Of a stretch of DNA of 55,385 nt, positions 9,746 through 48,437 are shown piece by piece; the first letter of the stretch is position 1, and every line of letters begins with the position of its first letter. Below the pieces are notes generated by a model, which searched no databases, had not been told where the DNA came from, and saw only the letters and a program-made list of their open reading frames with translations. Source of the stretch: a virus; IMG/VR virus record IMGVR_UViG_3300046804_004030, positions 1 to 55,385 of that record; one strand, written 5' to 3'. Position numbers and translations under genes: made by a program.

Positions 9746-10162
9746 CGGTCCAAGCGCCCAATACTTTATAGATTCTGCGATCAGTGAACCTATCACCTCA
9801 CCTTAGGCGCAGCCAGTATCGGCAGCGAAGCGGAAACTGTAACTTACCTGCCAGGCAGTAAAGTTAAGCTATCTCCACTGTAGGTTACGCTCGATTGTAA
9901 CTGTAACCTCGCGCAGTGTCACCGCGTTACAGTTACGCTAGCCTGTCAGACTTTATAGGTTAGCCTCTCACCTTAGCCTGTAACGTTGCCGTTGTTAGTT
10001 GTAGTTGTTAGCTTAGGATTGCGGCTCGGATAGTGACACCAACACTTCGCACCTTAGTCTGTAAGTTACCGTGCCAGTCTGGCAGGTTAGCTTGCGTCGC
10101 AAGTTACCTATAGTTTAGTTTAGTTTGCATGTTGCTCGACTTAATTAAGTCCCCAGGATAGG
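9746..10162. other. Non-coding region left of the 55-bp array
   Basis: This 417-bp stretch holds no gene. It is rich in GTTAC/GTAAC words and contains the long hairpin at 9897-9936 and short GTTAG-rich runs. Around 10108-10150 there is a weak, degenerate version of the 55-bp unit that follows (GCATGTT at the expected phase), so the array probably once began further left. Together with the arrays it forms a candidate origin or partition region. Confidence 0.6.
9897..9936. repeat. Long imperfect hairpin (cruciform candidate)
   Basis: GTAACTGTAA (9897-9906) pairs with TTACAGTTAC (9927-9936), and inside it CGCG (9910-9913) pairs with CGCG (9923-9926), leaving a 9-base loop and a 3-base bulge. 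The total is 14 pairs in 40 bases. There is no T-run and no adjacent gene end, so a terminator is unlikely; a replication or partition protein site, or a single-strand origin, fits the neighbourhood. Confidence 0.65.
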
Positions 10163-10560
10163 TAACATTTAAGATACTTAGCAAGATGCCGCATGTTAGT
10201 TAATCTTACAACTTAGCTAACATTTAAGATGGCAGCTCAGATGTTGCATGTTAGTTAATTCGACAAGTCAGCTAACATTTAAGATATCCAGGAGATCACC
10301 GCTATTTAGTTAATCTGACAAGTTACCTAACATTTAAGATACTGGGCTAATCGTTGCATGTTAGTTAATCTGACAGATTAGGTAGCATTTAAGATTCCCA
10401 GGGAATCGCTGTTAGTTAGTTAATGTGTCAAGTTAGCTAGTGTTTAAGATAGTTAGCTAATCGTTGTATGTTAGTTAATCCTGCAAGTTAATTAGCTATT
10501 AAGATAGTTAGTGAGTCCTTGTTAGTTAGTTAATCGAGCAACTTAGTTAGTGTTCCTGGG
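10163..10560 (+). repeat. Tandem 55-bp repeat array (7-8 units)
   Basis: The core TAACATTTAAGAT begins at 10163, 10218, 10273, 10328, 10383, 10438, 10493 and, much degraded, 10548: an exact 55-base period. A second block, GTTAGTTAATC, recurs in the same phase at 10195, 10250, 10305, 10360, 10415, 10470 and 10525. Between them the sequence varies. The first four units are best conserved and the array decays to the right. Two conserved boxes at fixed spacing suggest binding by one or two proteins, as in plasmid iterons or partition sites. Confidence 0.9.
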
Positions 10561-10612: not shown

Positions 10613-10835
10613 GAATGCCAGTTAGTCAATGATGAATGTTAGTTAATGATGAATGCAACTTAGTCAGTAGATGAATGGCCTTAGTCAGTGAATGAATGCA
10701 GTTGGTCATGAATGGCAGTTAGTCAGCATGAATGGCGTTTTAGTAAGTGAATGGCTTTTGTAGGTGAATGGCCATTCAAGCAGTTATGAATGGCCTTTGT
10801 TAGTTAGCTATGAATGGCAGTTACTCATGAATGGC
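10613..10835 (+). repeat. GAATGGC short-repeat array
   Basis: TGAATG(GC) occurs about twelve times at intervals of 16-24 bases: near 10613, 10634, 10651, 10673, 10694, 10710, 10730, 10749, 10766, 10788, 10812 and 10829, usually followed by AGTTAGTCA or (C/G)TTTT. The array runs into the 3' end of the RepL-like gene. Further copies lie inside the gene and in a cluster at 24.97-26.2 kb. Confidence 0.85.
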
Positions 10836-11312
10836 AGTCTCGTCCCTGCGGTTCCTATGTAAGTCAAGGTGAATGCAGTTATCAACTGGCTTCTTTTTGT
10901 TTTCTCTGTGAAGCTGCACAGCCTCATCGAAGCACTTAACCAGGAACCCTCGTTTCTTACCAGAGCCACACACCAGGAAGTTAGGGTTAATGATGTGATA
11001 CTTATCTCTTGTTCTGTAGTCAATGAATGGCAGCATTAGTTCTTCCTCCTTGAGGCGTTTAAGTGACAGAACAACGTGATTAGCTTTCTTTTCAATCAAG
11101 TCAGCAACAGCGGCACAGGTAGCTCTGCATCTACCACTGCGCCAGTCAGTCAATGAAATGAACGCAAGTAAGACAGTAATGTCACGATGTTGAATAGCAC
11201 CAGAAGCTGCCAAGTTAACCAACCTAGAAAGCTCAGCAGCGCCAATACGAAAGAAGTTACTTGAGTCATCTTCAAAGCTTTGTTCGTTAGCAGGTGGTGG
11301 ATTGTCAGTCAC
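10821..11312 (-). CDS. RepL-like winged-helix protein, candidate replication initiator
   Basis: The 163-residue product has a winged helix-turn-helix at about residues 44-100 (DITVLLAFISLTDW, CRATCAAVADLIEKK, VVLSLKRLKEEEL) followed by YHIINPNFLVCGSGKKR, which matches the YxINPxLxxxG signature of RepL-type plasmid replication proteins and related phage proteins. The GTG start has AGGAGG eight bases upstream. The gene sits directly beside two repeat arrays. RepL proteins start plasmid replication by binding origin repeats. A plain transcription regulator is the main alternative. Confidence 0.7.
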   Translation of the reverse strand: MTDNPPPANEQSFEDDSSNFFRIGAAELSRLVNLAASGAIQHRDITVLLAFISLTDWRSGRCRATCAAVADLIEKKANHVVLSLKRLKEEELMLPFIDYRTRDKYHIINPNFLVCGSGKKRGFLVKCFDEAVQLHRENKKKPVDNCIHLDLHRNRRDETAIHE

Positions 11313-17096: not shown

Positions 17097-17459
17097 TCAG
17101 TCAACGCCAAGCAAGTCAGACCAGTCAGCGGCGTTCATCGGTCGGTCAGCTTGCCGAGGCTGACAGTTAGTCAGCCATTGGACGCGCATCAGTAAGTCTC
17201 CTTCATAGAAAACTACGTTGCCGGCACCGTGAATCACGGCAGGATCGTCAGTAACGCTCTCAATCAGTGGAGCGTGATACGAAGTCAGCCTCCGACGAAC
17301 TACGTTGCCGGCATCGGTACGGTACTCAATCTGTTGAGTGGTTTCACGCTGAGGCAACTCAGTCAGCCAGTAAGAACCGGCGAACTCAGTCATGTCGCCA
17401 ACATACAAAGTGTTGGCAATGCAGTGAAGGCTGCTGAAGTTACGGATGGAGGCTTGCAT
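17097..17459 (-). CDS. Hypothetical protein, first gene of its transcript, 120 aa
   Basis: I chose ATG 17459, whose leader matches that of the next gene (CGGAG followed by CACTGAC). The product is beta-rich: LHCIANTLYVGDMTEFAGSY, QQIEYRTDAGNVVRRRLTSY and NVVFYEGDLLMRVQWLT. It starts the leftward transcript that begins at the promoter near 17571 and ends at the terminator at 12489. Confidence 0.7.
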   Translation of the reverse strand: MQASIRNFSSLHCIANTLYVGDMTEFAGSYWLTELPQRETTQQIEYRTDAGNVVRRRLTSYHAPLIESVTDDPAVIHGAGNVVFYEGDLLMRVQWLTNCQPRQADRPMNAADWSDLLGVD

Positions 17460-17539
17460 GTCAGTGAACTCCGTTGGTTGGTGAGCGCAACTAACCACCA
17501 ACTAAGTCGGTGACTCAGCTGGTTAGTTAGCTACAGGCA

Positions 17540-17627
17540 GGAGAGGCTACACCTCTCCCCCATGCCCACAATTATACAGCATCACGGCCCTTAGTGCCAT
17601 CCTTTGCTTCGATTCTGTAACATTAGC
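17540..17627 (-). promoter_or_regulatory. Promoter with 5' leader hairpin and distal box
   Basis: On the minus strand TATAAT lies at 17576-17571, with only a weak -35 match. Forty bases further upstream is GCTAATGTTACA (17627-17616). Downstream, the leader begins with GGGGGAGAGG and forms the hairpin GGAGAGG-TGTAG-CCTCTCC (17558-17540) at its very 5' end. The same distal box, at the same distance, and a similar GGGGAGAG leader occur at the promoter near 20806. Confidence 0.7.
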
Positions 17628-17899
17628 TATGGCCGGTTTCTAAATAGCTAGATCGGCTCTGGTCCGCAGTAGAACCGCCTAGGCTTAGCGTTTCTGCTCA
17701 GCGAAAGGGCCTGCTGGCCTTAGCGTTCTGCGGCCCTGTGAGCAGCCTGGCCCCAGATCCGCAGTCAGCTACCGATCAGCTCAGTCAGCCGTCTTCCCGG
17801 CCCGGCTACCGACCACTGGCAGCGTCATTAGCGATCGACTCGCGTAGTCAGCTGGATAGTGACAGCTGCAGCAGGGCCAGACCACATGACGCCGGTTAG
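17628..17899. other. Non-coding region upstream of the 17.5 kb promoter
   Basis: With the promoter region this makes a 440-bp gap (17460-17899). I see no gene in it. It is GC-richer than its surroundings and holds several near-repeats of GCTCAG and GGCCT, and several CAGCTGG/CAGCTGC words. It may hold regulatory sites. Confidence 0.5.
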
Positions 17900-18178
17900 T
17901 CAGCGACGCACCGGCTCACTTTCCATGATCTCGACCTCACCCTTCCAGGTATTGACCAAGATCATTGCCGCACCGAAGTCAATCTTGCGGTCAGCCAGCA
18001 GCTTGCCACTTGAGTTACGGCACTGATAAACGAACTTATCAGACTTACCTGTCGTATCAGCATTGCGAGTAATTTGATGCGACAGGTCAGTTACCTTGTC
18101 GTAATTAGTGGCCTTGTAGATACCGTGCAGCCACTTGAAACCAGCTTGGTTGCACTTGACATTAACTTGTTCAGTCAT
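17900..18178 (-). CDS. Hypothetical protein, 92 aa
   Basis: I chose ATG 18178, giving the ATGACTGA overlap with the upstream gene. The product starts MTEQVNVKCNQAGFKWLHGI and contains a TGKSDKFVYQCRNSSGKLL stretch and FGAAMILVNTWKGEVEIME. It looks like a small beta-sheet protein with two Cys. Function unknown. It is the last gene before the non-coding gap. Confidence 0.65.
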   Translation of the reverse strand: MTEQVNVKCNQAGFKWLHGIYKATNYDKVTDLSHQITRNADTTGKSDKFVYQCRNSSGKLLADRKIDFGAAMILVNTWKGEVEIMESEPVRR

Positions 18179-18674
18179 GGGAAGTAAAGTGAACGATGAT
18201 AGTTTGACACCAATAAAGTGTACCACTATTGTCGGGTACGCAGGTAGCCGCAGTCAAATAGTCAGGAAGCCCAGGTAAGTGAACGTCCATGACCGAAGAA
18301 AGAAACACAGGGCCAACTTTCTCAGCCCCGAGCGCAAATAAGCTGCGCCCTCCCTGAATAATTAGATAGCCGATCCAGTTCAGGTAGTAACCGCGCTCCT
18401 CGTCATCAGCAATGAATCCAGGATTGTCAGATACCATTGCCGATGCCCAGTCAGCCGGGACAACATACTGACGCTCTGCCGTGCCAACCTCCTCGACGAG
18501 GTAGGCAGTGAAGGCCCTGTACGCAGCCAGAATCTCCCGCTCAGTGAGGTTATCAACTGAATCAGTGAACAACTCGGCTGCGTAGGCAGTGAATAGCTCA
18601 CGCAGCCTTTCCGTTTCCTCAAAGTCACCAAACTCCTTGGTAACCAAGTCAGCAAACGGAGTATTCTGGATCAT
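18171..18674 (-). CDS. Hypothetical protein, 167 aa
   Basis: Acidic, helical first half (EFGDFEETERLRELFTAYA; LTEREILAAYRAFTAYLVEE), then a mixed second half with SLFALGAEKVGPVFLSSVMD. It overlaps both neighbours by a few bases. No family is recognised. Confidence 0.65.
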   Translation of the reverse strand: MIQNTPFADLVTKEFGDFEETERLRELFTAYAAELFTDSVDNLTEREILAAYRAFTAYLVEEVGTAERQYVVPADWASAMVSDNPGFIADDEERGYYLNWIGYLIIQGGRSLFALGAEKVGPVFLSSVMDVHLPGLPDYLTAATCVPDNSGTLYWCQTIIVHFTSHD

Positions 18675-19213
18675 GGAAAATAGCCATCGTGCCAGCTTTG
18701 TGATTCCTCAATCTGAGCCAGGAACCTGTCGCACATTAGCTTAGCCTTCTCGCCCGACAAAGTTTGTGGATCGCTGTCAAAGTTGAGTGGTCCGTGGTAG
18801 TCAGCTAGAGACTTGTAGGCAGATGCCAGGGTAACAGGGTCGCTAGATAGCAAGTCAACAACAAGCTTATCAAAGCTGCTGCCAATGAACTCAGCAACAC
18901 TACTAAGGCTGGCGCAGTTACCAAACCATGCACATAAGTTAGGATGAAATCTGTTGTCGCTTACCCCGATCCATCCGAGCGCACTACTGGATTGGTCGTC
19001 AACAACTGACATAACCTGCTTAACCGCAGTAAGCCGCTCAAGCCGAATGCTGTAAGCTAGCCTGCTCTCAGATGAGTCATCTGAGTCGGTCATCACAATT
19101 AGCTCGGGGCAGTAGATACCACGCCTGTCAACCAAGACAAGCGCGCCACCATGTTCGTAAGGATCGACGTCACCGATGTTAGCGACGCACCAGTAAGAAG
19201 GTTGCTGAGTCAT
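18671..19213 (-). CDS. Hypothetical protein, 180 aa
   Basis: Starts MTQQPSYWCVANIGDVDPYE. It contains GALVLVDRRGIYCPELIVMT and a VMSVVDDQSSSALGWIGVSD segment, then a helical C-terminus with a KLMCDRFLAQIEESQSWHDG end. The GYFP C-terminus overlaps the next start by four bases. Function unknown. Confidence 0.65.
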   Translation of the reverse strand: MTQQPSYWCVANIGDVDPYEHGGALVLVDRRGIYCPELIVMTDSDDSSESRLAYSIRLERLTAVKQVMSVVDDQSSSALGWIGVSDNRFHPNLCAWFGNCASLSSVAEFIGSSFDKLVVDLLSSDPVTLASAYKSLADYHGPLNFDSDPQTLSGEKAKLMCDRFLAQIEESQSWHDGYFP

Positions 19214-19356
19214 TGTTGGTTAGGATTGAAGTCAGGGTCAACTTTCTGAATCAGTGCAGCAACTGCTTGACCAAGCAGGTCAATGTTGTCAAGCGCCTTG
19301 CTTAACTTGGCTTCCAGGTCACTGATGCGACCATCAAAGTCAGCAAGCTCTTGCAC
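19210..19356 (-). CDS. Small coiled-coil protein, 48 aa
   Basis: Read by hand in an apparent 460-bp gap. It begins at GTG 19356, sharing a G with the upstream stop, and ends overlapping the next ATG (ATGA). The sequence is a single heptad-patterned helix (ISDLEAKLSKALDNIDLLG) ending in DFNPNQQ. Its exact fit between two genes supports it. Confidence 0.65.
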   Translation of the reverse strand: MQELADFDGRISDLEAKLSKALDNIDLLGQAVAALIQKVDPDFNPNQQ

Positions 19357-19508
19357 TAGCTCGGGGAATGGTCAGGCTGCTCGTCGCCAAGTGTGTAACG
19401 ACGATGCCAGCAAACCATAGTGCCGACATTGTACCACTCACGCGAGCTCTCAGCAAAGTCATCTTGCCTGATCTCGATAGTCAGGTTGCCGTGCTTGATG
19501 GTTTCCAT
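19356..19508 (-). CDS. Short version of a GTMVCxHRRYxLGD phage protein, 50 aa
   Basis: Read by hand. ATG 19508 is preceded by AACTAACTGAC. The product contains QDDFAESSREWYNVGTMVCW followed by HRRYTLGDEQ. I recognise the core (ES-x-REW-x-N-x-GTMVC-x-HRRY-x-LGD) from the N-terminus of a common phage protein that is usually over 100 residues. Here it stops ten residues after the core, so this is a truncated but intact-looking copy. Function unknown. Confidence 0.75.
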   Translation of the reverse strand: METIKHGNLTIEIRQDDFAESSREWYNVGTMVCWHRRYTLGDEQPDHSPS

Positions 19509-19513
19509 GTCAG

Positions 19514-19681
19514 TTAGTTGTTGTAGGGATTGGCCCAGGAAGTCACCTGCTGGTCAGTAATCAGCCCGTCACGGTGCAGGCAGTCAATGAAAATGCACCA
19601 TGCCTCGCCAGCAGCTGGCTTGTCAGTCTTGTCGAAAGTAAACCGTTGATTGAACTCTCGTCTAGCTTGCTTGTAAGTCAT
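19514..19681 (-). CDS. Hypothetical protein, 55 aa
   Basis: Read by hand. It starts at ATG 19681, overlapping the upstream stop, and ends five bases before the next ATG. Product: MTYKQARREFNQRFTFDKTD, then an amphipathic helix (AWCIFIDCLHRDGLITDQQV). Function unknown. Confidence 0.7.
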   Translation of the reverse strand: MTYKQARREFNQRFTFDKTDKPAAGEAWCIFIDCLHRDGLITDQQVTSWANPYNN

Positions 19682-19965
19682 CGGAGATCATCGTTGTTTT
19701 CTTCAGCCAGCCAGTCATAAACCCAGCGAGCAAGCTCAGCGAGGCTGCCGTAACGAGCCTCGCGTTCGACCATTGTCCAGTAAGTCAGCGAAGTGTACTT
19801 AACAAACCACTGCTCATCGTTAAGGACAACGAAACAAGCTGGCTTCTTATCGTCGGCATCAAACCAGTCAGGCTCAATGCAGTTTTCTTCGGCAATGCGC
19901 GAAGCGTAGAACTCAGCGCATGGAACTTCCTTAGCAGAAGCAAGAAAGCTATCGAAGTCAGTCAT
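19678..19965 (-). CDS. Hypothetical protein, 95 aa
   Basis: I chose ATG 19965 because it gives the ATGACTGA overlap; ATG 19971 is two codons upstream and equally possible. The product starts MTDFDSFLASAKEVPCAEFY and has a DKKPACFVVLNDEQWFVKYT segment, then an ARYGSLAELARWVYDWLAEE helix. An acidic protein of this kind could be a mimic or inhibitor, but no evidence shows this. Confidence 0.65.
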   Translation of the reverse strand: MTDFDSFLASAKEVPCAEFYASRIAEENCIEPDWFDADDKKPACFVVLNDEQWFVKYTSLTYWTMVEREARYGSLAELARWVYDWLAEENNDDLR

Positions 19966-20266
19966 TGTCATCATCAACAGTGAGGACGTAGTAGTAGCCA
20001 ACATGATCGCTACCGCGAGCAACTACCTTCATCTTGGACAGGAAGCCAGTCGAGAAAGGCTTGTCAGTGAACCGCTCCATCCACTTAGTCAGTGCAGCAT
20101 CGTGACCGTCAGTACTGCTGTATGGCGCAGGAATCCTGACCTGCCACTTAGTTTCCGAGTCGCGCTGGTGAGTGGCGAAGTAGTGAAGCGAGCCGCGATA
20201 GTAGCGACACTCAGTCTTGACACAGACACCGACAAGTAAGTCAGTGATCGGCGGAATGGTTTGCAT
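19958..20266 (-). CDS. Hypothetical protein, 102 aa
   Basis: Starts MQTIPPITDLLVGVCVKTEC. It is beta-rich (YYRGSLHYFATHQRDSETKW; GYYYVLTVDDDND) and may be a small barrel. A run of CCAACCAACC precedes the ATG. Function unknown. Confidence 0.65.
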   Translation of the reverse strand: MQTIPPITDLLVGVCVKTECRYYRGSLHYFATHQRDSETKWQVRIPAPYSSTDGHDAALTKWMERFTDKPFSTGFLSKMKVVARGSDHVGYYYVLTVDDDND

Positions 20267-20295
20267 GGTCGTTGGTTGGTTGGGGTGGGGCGAAG

Positions 20296-20529
20296 TCAGG
20301 CCAGATGACCGAAGGGAACTGGGATTGGCGGCTTCTCAATAGTCGGCCGCACTACCTTGCTAACTGATCTGTCTTTCCAGTTAGCGCAGCAGCGCGTACT
20401 GATGTAGTACCTTGCCGCAGGATCAGCCATCTGATACTCAGTTAGCATCTTTCTGGCTAGCAAGCGATACGGAAACTCATCGACGGTCTCCAGATAGCGA
20501 CTGTCTTTGCGTTGGATGTAGTAACTCAT
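20296..20529 (-). CDS. Conserved small phage protein (YYIQ/ARYYIS type), 77 aa
   Basis: The product has the order SYYIQRKDSRYLETVDEF, then ARKMLTEYQMADPAARYYIS, then RCCANWKD. I recognise this order (YLETVDEF; EA-x-x-M-x-x-EY; ADPxARYYISxRxCxxW) from a conserved unassigned family of small phage proteins. It overlaps its upstream neighbour by four bases. Confidence 0.8.
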   Translation of the reverse strand: MSYYIQRKDSRYLETVDEFPYRLLARKMLTEYQMADPAARYYISTRCCANWKDRSVSKVVRPTIEKPPIPVPFGHLA

Positions 20530-20738
20530 TTGTCAAGCTCAGTCAGCTTGTCAACGTTGATGACTTGCTCAAGATCAATGCCGTTGGTCACTGTCAGATC
20601 GAAACGATCATTGTCAGTACCATCGCGAAGATTCTCAAGTTCTTCCTCAGTCAACTTCTCAACATTGATAAGAAAGGCAGTATCAAGTGAGAAGTAGCTG
20701 CCATCAGTGGACAGCACAACGTAGTCAGCGAAGTCCAT
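20526..20738 (-). CDS. Small acidic protein, 70 aa, first gene of transcript
   Basis: The product is acidic (MDFADYVVLSTDGSYFSLDT; LTEEELENLRDGTDND) and ends with a repeated theme, INVEKLTE and INVDKLTE. It is the first gene after the promoter at 20806, with a leader of about 60 bases. Its acidity and place at the head of a transcript are suggestive of an inhibitor, which is only a guess. Confidence 0.7.
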   Translation of the reverse strand: MDFADYVVLSTDGSYFSLDTAFLINVEKLTEEELENLRDGTDNDRFDLTVTNGIDLEQVINVDKLTELDK

Positions 20739-20805
20739 AGTGAGCGAAGTAGGTGACTTAGTTAGCGAGTGCGACTGCGGGATACACTCTCCCCATCGCC
20801 CTCTA

Positions 20806-20862
20806 ATTGTACCGCAACAGGGCTAAATGGTCAAATTCGTGTTGCGTAGTTGTAACATTAGC
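20806..20862 (-). promoter_or_regulatory. Promoter with distal box, sister of the 17.57 kb promoter
   Basis: On the minus strand TTGACC (20834-20829) and TACAAT (20811-20806) are 17 bases apart, a good sigma-70 promoter. GCTAATGTTACA lies at 20862-20851, exactly 40 bases from the -10 element, as at 17616-17627. The leader begins with GGGCGATGGGGAGAG and can form a small GAGTG/CACTC hairpin. Confidence 0.75.
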
Positions 20863-20920
20863 GGCTGGGCTGATCCTACATACTTTTACCGGACTCTTCC
20901 CGTAGCAGAAGCTGAGTCGC

Positions 20921-46779: not shown

Positions 46780-47499
46780 ATGGATCCACGGTTCCGGGTG
46801 GAGACGATCGCGGCAACGCCCGAGCCGAATCGGCTGGTCTGGCGGGCGCTACACACCGACTACTCAGAAGATTTCATCGCTGACCAAGAAGCGCCAGATG
46901 AAGGAAGGGCCGGTGAAATCTTTATCAAGAGACTTCTAAGTGCAGATCGCGGGCACTTTGGATGCGTAGAGCATCCGCAAATCTCATTTGCTGTTGGATG
47001 GTTTCCGCATTCCGTGATGCAACAGGCTCGTACACATCGCGTATCAGTTAGTTTCGATGTAATGTCGGGGCGCTATACGGGACAAAGAATTCTTGACGTA
47101 GTAAGCGGTAAACGGGAACTTGAGGAAGTCTTCTATCTTAGGCCACTAGGCAACTACTCGGACAGACAGGGCAAGAAATATGAGTACACCGAAGATTGGC
47201 GTGCGTTCGATCTGAAGGAGTGCATGAACGCTGCACGCATCTACGCCGATAAGATTGCAGAAGGCTTCGCCGAAGAACATGCAAGGGGTATGGTTCCCTT
47301 TGATTTCAGGCAACACTTTGTCGTCAGCTTCAATGCTCGCTCGCTGTGCCACTTTCTTGATTTGCGTAGCAAGGCTGATGCACAGATCGAGATCCGCTGG
47401 CTTTGTGAGTTGCTCATGCCGAAATTCAAGGAATGGATGCCTGAGCTTGCCGAATGGTACGCCAGCCACAGATATGGAAAAGCGAGGCTGGCACCATGA
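46780..47499 (+). CDS. thyX: Flavin-dependent thymidylate synthase
   Basis: I prefer ATG 46780 (MDPRFRVETI), the usual start for cyanobacterial ThyX, over a GTG at 46750. The 239-residue product has the ThyX signature RTHRVSVSFDVMSGRY (84-99) and GHFGCVEHPQISF (58-70). The enzyme makes dTMP from dUMP with FAD. The stop overlaps the sigma factor start (ATGA). ThyX of this type, not ThyA, is the cyanobacterial form. Confidence 0.95.
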   Translation: MDPRFRVETIAATPEPNRLVWRALHTDYSEDFIADQEAPDEGRAGEIFIKRLLSADRGHFGCVEHPQISFAVGWFPHSVMQQARTHRVSVSFDVMSGRYTGQRILDVVSGKRELEEVFYLRPLGNYSDRQGKKYEYTEDWRAFDLKECMNAARIYADKIAEGFAEEHARGMVPFDFRQHFVVSFNARSLCHFLDLRSKADAQIEIRWLCELLMPKFKEWMPELAEWYASHRYGKARLAP

Positions 47500-48437
47500 C
47501 ATGCGAAGACTACTTAAGGGATATAGGCCGCGTGCCTTTGCTGACAAGCGAAGAAGAGATTGTCCTTGGCAATAGTGTCCAGACCATGATTCGCCTGCTA
47601 GAGGGCAAGGGTGTCACCCATCAGCTTTCGGCAAGCAATCTTGACGAAGCACTGGAGCAACTCAACGGCCAGGAGAGGCGAATCGTCAGGAATGGGCTGA
47701 GAGCAAGAAACCGCATGGTTTCAGCTAACATGCGTCTTGTAGTTGCCATAGCAAAGAAGTACGTCAATAAACAGGTTCACATGACAATGCAAGATCTGAT
47801 CCAAGAAGGTGCGATCGGTCTTGCAAGAGCTGCTGAAAAGTTTGACCCAGCGCGAGGATACAAGTTTTCCACCTACGCCTATCTGTGGATCAAGCAGGGG
47901 ATGACGAGGGGATGCGAAGCCCAGGAGGGAATGATCAAGCTCCCGGCGCATCTCCAGCGACTAATCAGGAAGGCTGCTGAGGTGCGGATTCGCCTGGCTG
48001 CAAAGCTTGGCAGAGAGCCAAGCTTCAAAGAACTGTCGGATGAGATGGGTGAAGCTGATCACGACAAGCTGAGAAGCATCATCTCAATGCACATGCTGAT
48101 GTCACCGGCAATTATTTCGATTGACATCAAGGCAGAAGGAAATGATAGGTCATTCCTGTCGCTGTCTGATATTTTGAATACAGATGACGAAAGTGAAATT
48201 AGAGAGTCAGAAGAAGACGCATCAAAGCTAAACTTTGTAATGCTTGCAATTCAGGCTCTTGATCCAGTTGACAGAGAGCTAATTACGAGAAAGTACGGGA
48301 TTGGCTGCGAACCAGTTTCTATCAAAGAACTTGCAAGAATGACAGAGCTTGCGCCGCAGGTGATACGAGAGCGACAGCAGCTGGCAGCAGCAAAGATTCG
48401 ATATGTGGTTACGAGCTTTGTAGCGCCAGCTATTTGA
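47496..48437 (+). CDS. Sigma-70 family RNA polymerase sigma factor
   Basis: I chose ATG 47496, which overlaps the thyX stop. The 313-residue product has region 1.2 (YLRDIGRVPLLTSEEEIVLG, 6-25), region 2 (NMRLVVAIAKKYV to ARGYKFSTYAYLWIKQGMTR, 78-138), region 3 (LPAHLQRLIRKAAEVR, 149-164) and region 4 (LDPVDRELITRKYG and ELARMTELAPQVIRERQQL, 252 onward). This is the group-2 layout of cyanobacteria, not a short extracytoplasmic factor. It would direct host polymerase to phage promoters. A terminator follows. Confidence 0.9.
   Translation: MTCEDYLRDIGRVPLLTSEEEIVLGNSVQTMIRLLEGKGVTHQLSASNLDEALEQLNGQERRIVRNGLRARNRMVSANMRLVVAIAKKYVNKQVHMTMQDLIQEGAIGLARAAEKFDPARGYKFSTYAYLWIKQGMTRGCEAQEGMIKLPAHLQRLIRKAAEVRIRLAAKLGREPSFKELSDEMGEADHDKLRSIISMHMLMSPAIISIDIKAEGNDRSFLSLSDILNTDDESEIRESEEDASKLNFVMLAIQALDPVDRELITRKYGIGCEPVSIKELARMTELAPQVIRERQQLAAAKIRYVVTSFVAPAI

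Follow-up and report, generated by a model that had tools for sequence, protein, structure and literature searches.

Paired promoters in two gene gaps

The stretch analysed here, called the window, is the whole of a 55,385-base virus record from IMG/VR (IMGVR_UViG_3300046804_004030). On its minus strand lie two promoter-like elements, P1 and P2, which carry the same 12-base distal box, GCTAATGTTACA. P1 sits in the gap between genes at 17460-17899 and P2 in that at 20739-20920, positions from which either can start a series of small leftward genes. Their parts, with the first open frame that follows each, are as follows.

17616-17627, minus strand: P1 distal box GCTAATGTTACA, exact match
17606-17622, minus strand: P1 site in the tandem-site register discussed below, TGTTACAGAATCGAAGC; upstream half matches TGTWAH at 6/6, downstream half at 3/6
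17595-17600, minus strand: P1 -35-like hexamer ATGGCA, weak, with an 18-nt spacer
17571-17576, minus strand: P1 -10 element TATAAT
17097-17459, minus strand: first open frame after P1, 120 aa, without a family match
20851-20862, minus strand: P2 distal box GCTAATGTTACA, exact match
20841-20857, minus strand: P2 site in the tandem-site register, TGTTACAACTACGCAAC; upstream half 6/6, downstream half 4/6
20829-20834, minus strand: P2 -35 element TTGACC, with a 17-nt spacer
20806-20811, minus strand: P2 -10 element TACAAT
20526-20738, minus strand: first open frame after P2, 70 aa

The first-pass annotation had placed the same distal box 40 bp from both -10 elements, and this is confirmed as an approximate figure: the exact 12-mer occurs twice in the window, and 39 nt separate it from the -10 element at P1 and at P2 alike. 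No further copy at up to one mismatch was found across the record. Both promoters have hexamers of sigma-70 type within the usual 16-18 nt spacing, P1 as ATGGCA-18-TATAAT and P2 as TTGACC-17-TACAAT, each scoring 10/12. The window holds six sites with a -35/-10 score of at least 10/12 on the minus strand and none on the plus strand; of the six, only P1 and P2 have GGGGAG or GGGAAG within the leader's first 40 nt.

Repeated 12-mers as such are common in the record (519 distinct). The 14 TAYAAT sites make 91 pairs, in one of which the longest exact run at zero offset within the 100 bp upstream is 12; it is at most 5 in the other 90. Among 300,000 pairs of random 100-mers, a run of 12 arose in 5, besides 4 draws of identical stretches. 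Both comparisons bear out the earlier assertion that a shared 12-mer at equal spacing is unlikely by chance. Identity between the two promoters is complete in the box (12/12) and drops to 5/16 between box and -35, to 9/17 over the spacer and to 13/40 farther upstream. The low identity outside the box argues against a recent duplication and indicates that the box has been kept.

The pair in a relative

Related records were reached through the sigma-factor gene. One relative, G011, has proteins about 45-84% identical to those of the window and is syntenic with it over ~17.9-28.7 kb and beyond. It has promoters, P1B and P2B, at both corresponding gene junctions. One junction adjoins the counterpart of 17900-18226, and the other precedes a frame whose start resembles, by eye, that of the frame at 20526-20738. 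The frame at 17097-17459 differs from the gene found after P1B. P1B and P2B share 30 identical bases, GTGTTACTTTTCCGTTACATGCGACTTGAC, which lie upstream and run into the -35 and contain GTTAC twice, at a distance of 11 bp; in P2B a third such unit stands farther upstream, in phase with these. The two promoters then differ through most of the spacer and are alike again from inside the -10 into the leader, through GGCATCAAGCGGTGGGGAG.

The exact 12-mer of the window is absent from the promoters of G011, and within each genome the two promoters resemble each other more than they resemble their counterparts in the other genome. The leader word GGGGAG-N1-5-TGTA is found in the window at P1 and P2 only, and in the G011 lineage at both sister promoters and once more, surrounded by other sequence (L169/L175). 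The idea of two sister promoters with a common, putative distal regulator site thus gains support, the pair being kept at the same two junctions in the relative. When closer relatives were sought with proteins of the locus, the G011 lineage and a distant group were all that came up. A leader-motif scan of IMG/VR returned 10 stretches, four of which are the known relative lineage and six of which look like chance.

A putative tandem response-regulator site

In an alignment of P1, P2, P1B and P2B, TGTTAC is invariant, standing 46 bp 5' of the -10 in the window and 47 bp in the relative. The form of the site is TGTTAC-N5-CGNNRC in the window and TGTTAC-N5-CGTTACA in the relative, and it spans about -58 to -42, given a presumed start 7 nt after the -10. 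The TGTWAH upstream half of a WalR box is thus present in all four promoters. Scored at this register against the WalR consensus, TGTWAH-N5-TGTWAH (PMC4168254), P1 reaches 9, P2 10 and the relative's two promoters 11 and 11, of 12. Random 17-mers score at least 9 in 0.7% of cases, at least 10 in 0.13% and at least 11 in 0/3000; the scores of P1 and P2 are not independent of each other, the upstream half being common to both.

RpaB is the cyanobacterial counterpart of WalR; a literature search pairing RpaB with YycF found no paper. It is an OmpR-family regulator of cyanobacteria that binds KTTACAWW-N2-KTTACAWW and activates from about -45 to -66 (PMC13421787; PMC11633204). Its HLR1 site resembles the sites described here in having GTTACA direct-repeat half-sites upstream of the core promoter; RpaB activates from about -45 to -66 (PMC13421787), a zone into which the present sites would fall given that presumed start. 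It differs in its 10-bp period and W-rich flanks; the present, putative sites have an 11-bp period. The WalR (YycF/VicR) box of Firmicutes agrees in half-site, in 11-bp period and in its direct repeats (11/12 in the relative, 10/12 at P2, 9/12 at P1), but it belongs to another phylum, and the downstream half-site of the window is degenerate. A host-regulator site in a phage promoter has its likeness in the Pho boxes and NtcA sites of S-PM2 and T4-like cyanophages (PMC10976474; PMC3037559). Those, however, involve other regulators and motifs, the NtcA and Pho motifs are not consistently present here, and the phages that carry them are T4-like, as the window phage may not be.

Recurrence in other viruses and in bacterial genomes

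The pattern GTTAC-N6-GTTACA-N5-7-TTGAC, scanned through IMG/VR, gave 84 stretches, in which 82 sites were re-found, 48 of them distinct and with tails. Counted from TTGAC, 15 of the 48 have TANNWT at offset 18, against 0-3 at each of the other 39 offsets, which marks the tandem site with TTGAC as a promoter architecture. Several of the 48 are near-copies from one phage family, so that they do not count as independent cases. The locus family around L226 has one such tandem site in common. The neighbourhood of L226, the only family member tested, has matches in 188 phage records, 163 of them named for Synechococcus and 14 for Prochlorococcus, and blastn matches it to T4-like cyanophages. A group of three further loci (L215, L216, L266) gave no match among named phages, as judged from L266, the only one tested. 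By eye, an inverted repeat, GGTTTRTGT ... ACAYAAACC, encloses the GTTAC tandem site at L221, L226, L210 and loci like them, and it changes on both sides between variants.

In bacterial genomes the tandem site with a -10 was found at 40 loci, against 1.4 expected by chance (computed from 257 billion bases, two strands, 12 spacings and 21 fixed bases). By title, 33 of the 40 are clostridial, and many of the first frames downstream begin, by eye, like secreted proteins; together these fit the WalR box. The promoter sequence of one locus, L308 (NZHF01000014, titled Gammaproteobacteria), is the same as that of the cyanophage-like L226 family, and L308 is probably a contig of phage origin that binning has assigned to a bacterial genome.

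A scan of IMG/VR for the exact 12-mer at a spacing of 38-40 from TAYAAT returned 64 stretches, with 8 matches outside open frames of at least 100 aa. One promoter-like sequence common to L043, L052, L059 and L060 was dropped, as no tie to this phage was found.

A distant group with many sister promoters

The distant group includes six records (G015, G016, G017, G001, G018 and G019, represented by loci L183-L188), which have 8, 7, 8, 9, 8 and 8 sister promoters respectively (up to 3 mismatches), clustered on one strand. Their form is TTGACA-17-TATAAT with TGC before the -10, and a reversed control gave 0. A seventh record, G002, has no sister promoter of this type. A hairpin and T run follow within 65 nt of 33 of the 44 sister promoters (L068 included); among random stretches the figure is 246/2100. 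The spacers show dyad symmetry, with 52% of cells complementary at the best centre, and an enrichment in ACGTG and GTAAC/GTTAC (13 of 35 distinct spacers against 0.66 expected). In this they resemble an operator placed between -35 and -10. Covariation in the spacers is weak (46/2000 shuffles).

Leaders

The leaders of P1 and P2 contain the following predicted elements.

17539-17559, minus strand: P1 leader hairpin 1 (GGGAGAGG / CCTCTCC), fold
17487-17534, minus strand: P1 leader hairpin 2, long stem, fold
20771-20799, minus strand: P2 leader half hairpin; the whole leader folds no better than shuffles
20745-20761, minus strand: P2 counterpart of the second leader stem, CTAAGT-N5-ACTTCG

The first-pass annotation had both leaders beginning with a common word and a hairpin or half hairpin. 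The word stands, since GGGGAGAG is present at 17553-17560 and at 20787-20794, as does the structure of the P1 leader, which folds strongly (z -4.76, 0/200 shuffles); the P2 fold does not (z -0.02). In the relative, both leaders fold better than shuffles (z -2.60 for P1B and -3.39 for P2B). Over the four leaders the second stem, CTRAGY-N5-RCTTAG, is paired in 23/24 cells (95.8%), and its covariation is not significant, there being one compensatory pair, a result reached by 127/500 shuffles.

There is a precedent for such a pair of leaders in phage HK022, where ~70-nt put RNAs with two stem-loops follow both early promoters (PMC9378689). A promoter pair whose transcripts begin with related stem-loops is what the two systems would have in common. 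Antitermination by put needs no phage protein. By analogy, two 5' stem-loops might act on the polymerase or protect the transcript end, a role that we regard as speculative and, as an explanation of the paired promoters, quite improbable. The folding of P1, P1B and P2B, the pairing of the second stem and the frequent hairpin and T run after the promoters of the distant group speak for it. Against it, the P2 leader is unstructured beyond chance, a single pair covaries, Rfam has no match for the leaders, and a hairpin with a T run occurs in 0/4 of them.

GTTACA words beside the 55-bp repeats

The box had been linked to the 55-bp repeats of the window through the word TAACATT. We rejected this link, the likeness being not clearly above chance. 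The longest common word is 8 bases, which is reached by 4.9% of 4953 random 12-mers from the window, and 23% of 2087 GC-matched 12-mers share at least 7 bases with the repeats. GTTACA itself is absent from the 55-bp repeats.

The repeats are adjoined by 436 bp of non-coding DNA, where GTTAC is the most enriched 5-mer (9 against 0.67 expected) and GTTACA the most enriched 6-mer (5 against 0.13 expected). The element concerned is:

9838-9984, no strand assigned: five GTTACA/TGTAAC words, non-coding, left of the 55-bp repeats

GTTAC ranks 6/286 in the matching stretch of a further record, G013, and no such enrichment is seen in four stretches of three distant relatives. The cluster at 9838-9984 is possibly a further set of targets of the same protein. 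One protein serving both the promoters and the putative replication locus is possible but unproven, and we offer it as a lead and not a result.

A promoter-like site accompanies the cluster in the window, at 9922 on the minus strand. The 55-bp tandem repeats are followed by repeats of the TGAATGGC type, at 10133-10517 and 10620-10840 respectively, and the corresponding part of G013 contains similar TGAATGGC repeats. At about 83250-83720, G013 also has clusters of GTTACA/TGTAAC in non-coding DNA beside iteron-like repeats, as in the window.

The probable host

The phage probably infects a cyanobacterium. The link is drawn from three matches. Its sigma factor (47454-48437, plus strand) is of the cyanobacterial RpoD type, with Sig70-cyanoRpoD as the best NCBIfam model, below the cutoff of that model; the nearest phage relative of the sigma factor is in S-CBS3; and a Rad52-like protein matches one of a Microcystis phage at 66% identity over part. 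In the sigma factor, Pfam recognises regions 1.2 and 2, a sub-threshold region 3 and no region 4.

Interpretation and alternatives

With moderate confidence, we read P1 and P2 as matched sigma-70-type promoters with a putative OmpR-family tandem site, which start two consecutive leftward units. The distal box would be the better-kept half of this site, in an activating position. The presumed position in the activating zone, taken with the half-site, favours an OmpR-family regulator of the RpaB/WalR type, and host RpaB or a close cousin is the leading candidate. A dimer of the regulator would bind about -58 to -42 upstream of the presumed start and recruit RNA polymerase, so that both leftward units would be turned on together, as the condition of the host cell dictates. 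This suggests, without proving it, that the virus makes use of a light- or stress-sensing regulator belonging to its host.

A number of results weigh against this reading. Sigma-70 likeness alone is no evidence, since six sites compare with 4.3 expected in a 6-kb stretch, and the -35 of P1 is weak. The second TGTWAH, five bases on, is incomplete everywhere, at 3/6 in P1, 4/6 in P2 and 5/6 in both promoters of the relative. When the upstream 100 bp are searched freely rather than at the fixed register, the P1 score lacks significance, being reached by 28% of random 100-mers, and that of P2 is marginal (4.6%). The HLR1 consensus, which has a period of 10 bp, (G/T)TTACA(T/A)(T/A)NN(G/T)TTACA(T/A)(T/A), is absent from all four promoters; the best scores of 12, 11, 11 and 11 of 16 are equalled by 11-37% of random 100-mers. 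Neither do the four contain the NtcA site GTA-N8-TAC (5, 5, 4 and 4 of 6, with 5 found in 16% of random 100-mers), and three of them lack the Pho box CTTA-N7-CTTA (6, 6, 6 and 7 of 8, where 6 is reached by 43% and 7 by 4.7%). The sister lineage counts as one lineage, L180 and L182 being 100% identical to G011 over the shared stretch. A relaxed scan of two named T4-like regions (Bellamy and S-SM2) found no such site, 0 of the 40 bacterial loci is titled as a cyanobacterium, and the cyanobacterial host is itself deduced from gene likeness.

The box could instead be the operator of a regulator encoded by the phage, with protein and site changing together between lineages. Such co-change would explain why the promoters match within a genome more than they match their counterparts, and the distant group, with its 7-9 sister promoters per genome and its dyad-symmetric spacers enriched for ACGTG and GTAAC/GTTAC, speaks for it as well. 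We nevertheless consider it doubtful. The Pfam and PHROG matches listed for the 104 window proteins (25 of 51 PHROG families) include no family of DNA-binding regulators, helix-turn-helix or otherwise, beyond nucleases, an AP2 domain, an SSB and an NrdR-like zinc ribbon, and the tandem site recurs in unrelated viruses.

A dedicated protein might be dispensed with altogether if the box were an AT-rich UP-type element, or another contact of RNA polymerase, in two paralogous strong promoters. The alpha subunits of the polymerase touch DNA in the region that the box adjoins, and both -10 elements are near consensus. Yet the exact 12-mer keeps its G and C positions while the flanks have diverged, and an A/T-rich contact would not need the GTTAC direct repeat of the relative with its 11-bp period, which makes this account unlikely. 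Coincidence, that is, a repeated 12-mer beside chance look-alikes of a -10, might be entertained in a record so rich in repeated 12-mers and sigma-70-like sites; set against the equal spacing, the common leader and the presence of a pair at both corresponding junctions of the relative, it is very improbable indeed.

Implications

Cyanophages are described as using host Pho and NtcA regulation (PMC10976474; PMC3037559). A literature search on cyanophages and RpaB found no paper with either word in its title, and one on GTTACA direct repeats, response regulators and promoters found nothing, an absence there that is not an absence from print. In its widest form, the proposal would be that several unrelated cyanophage lineages independently placed an 11-bp tandem GTTAC site before their promoters, through which the master light/redox regulator of the host, of RpaB type, activates phage genes, and that in the present phage this protein binds the GTTACA cluster too, tying transcription and replication to the photosynthetic state of the host; this we rate as a long shot. 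For the paired promoters themselves, what is offered is a motif, a candidate protein and a register (46-47 bp 5' of the -10), along with an example of paired promoters that stay similar within a genome as their counterparts diverge. If the preferred reading is true, an OmpR-type tandem site at paired promoters, found again in unrelated aquatic phages, would add a light/redox input beside the use that cyanophages make of Pho and NtcA.

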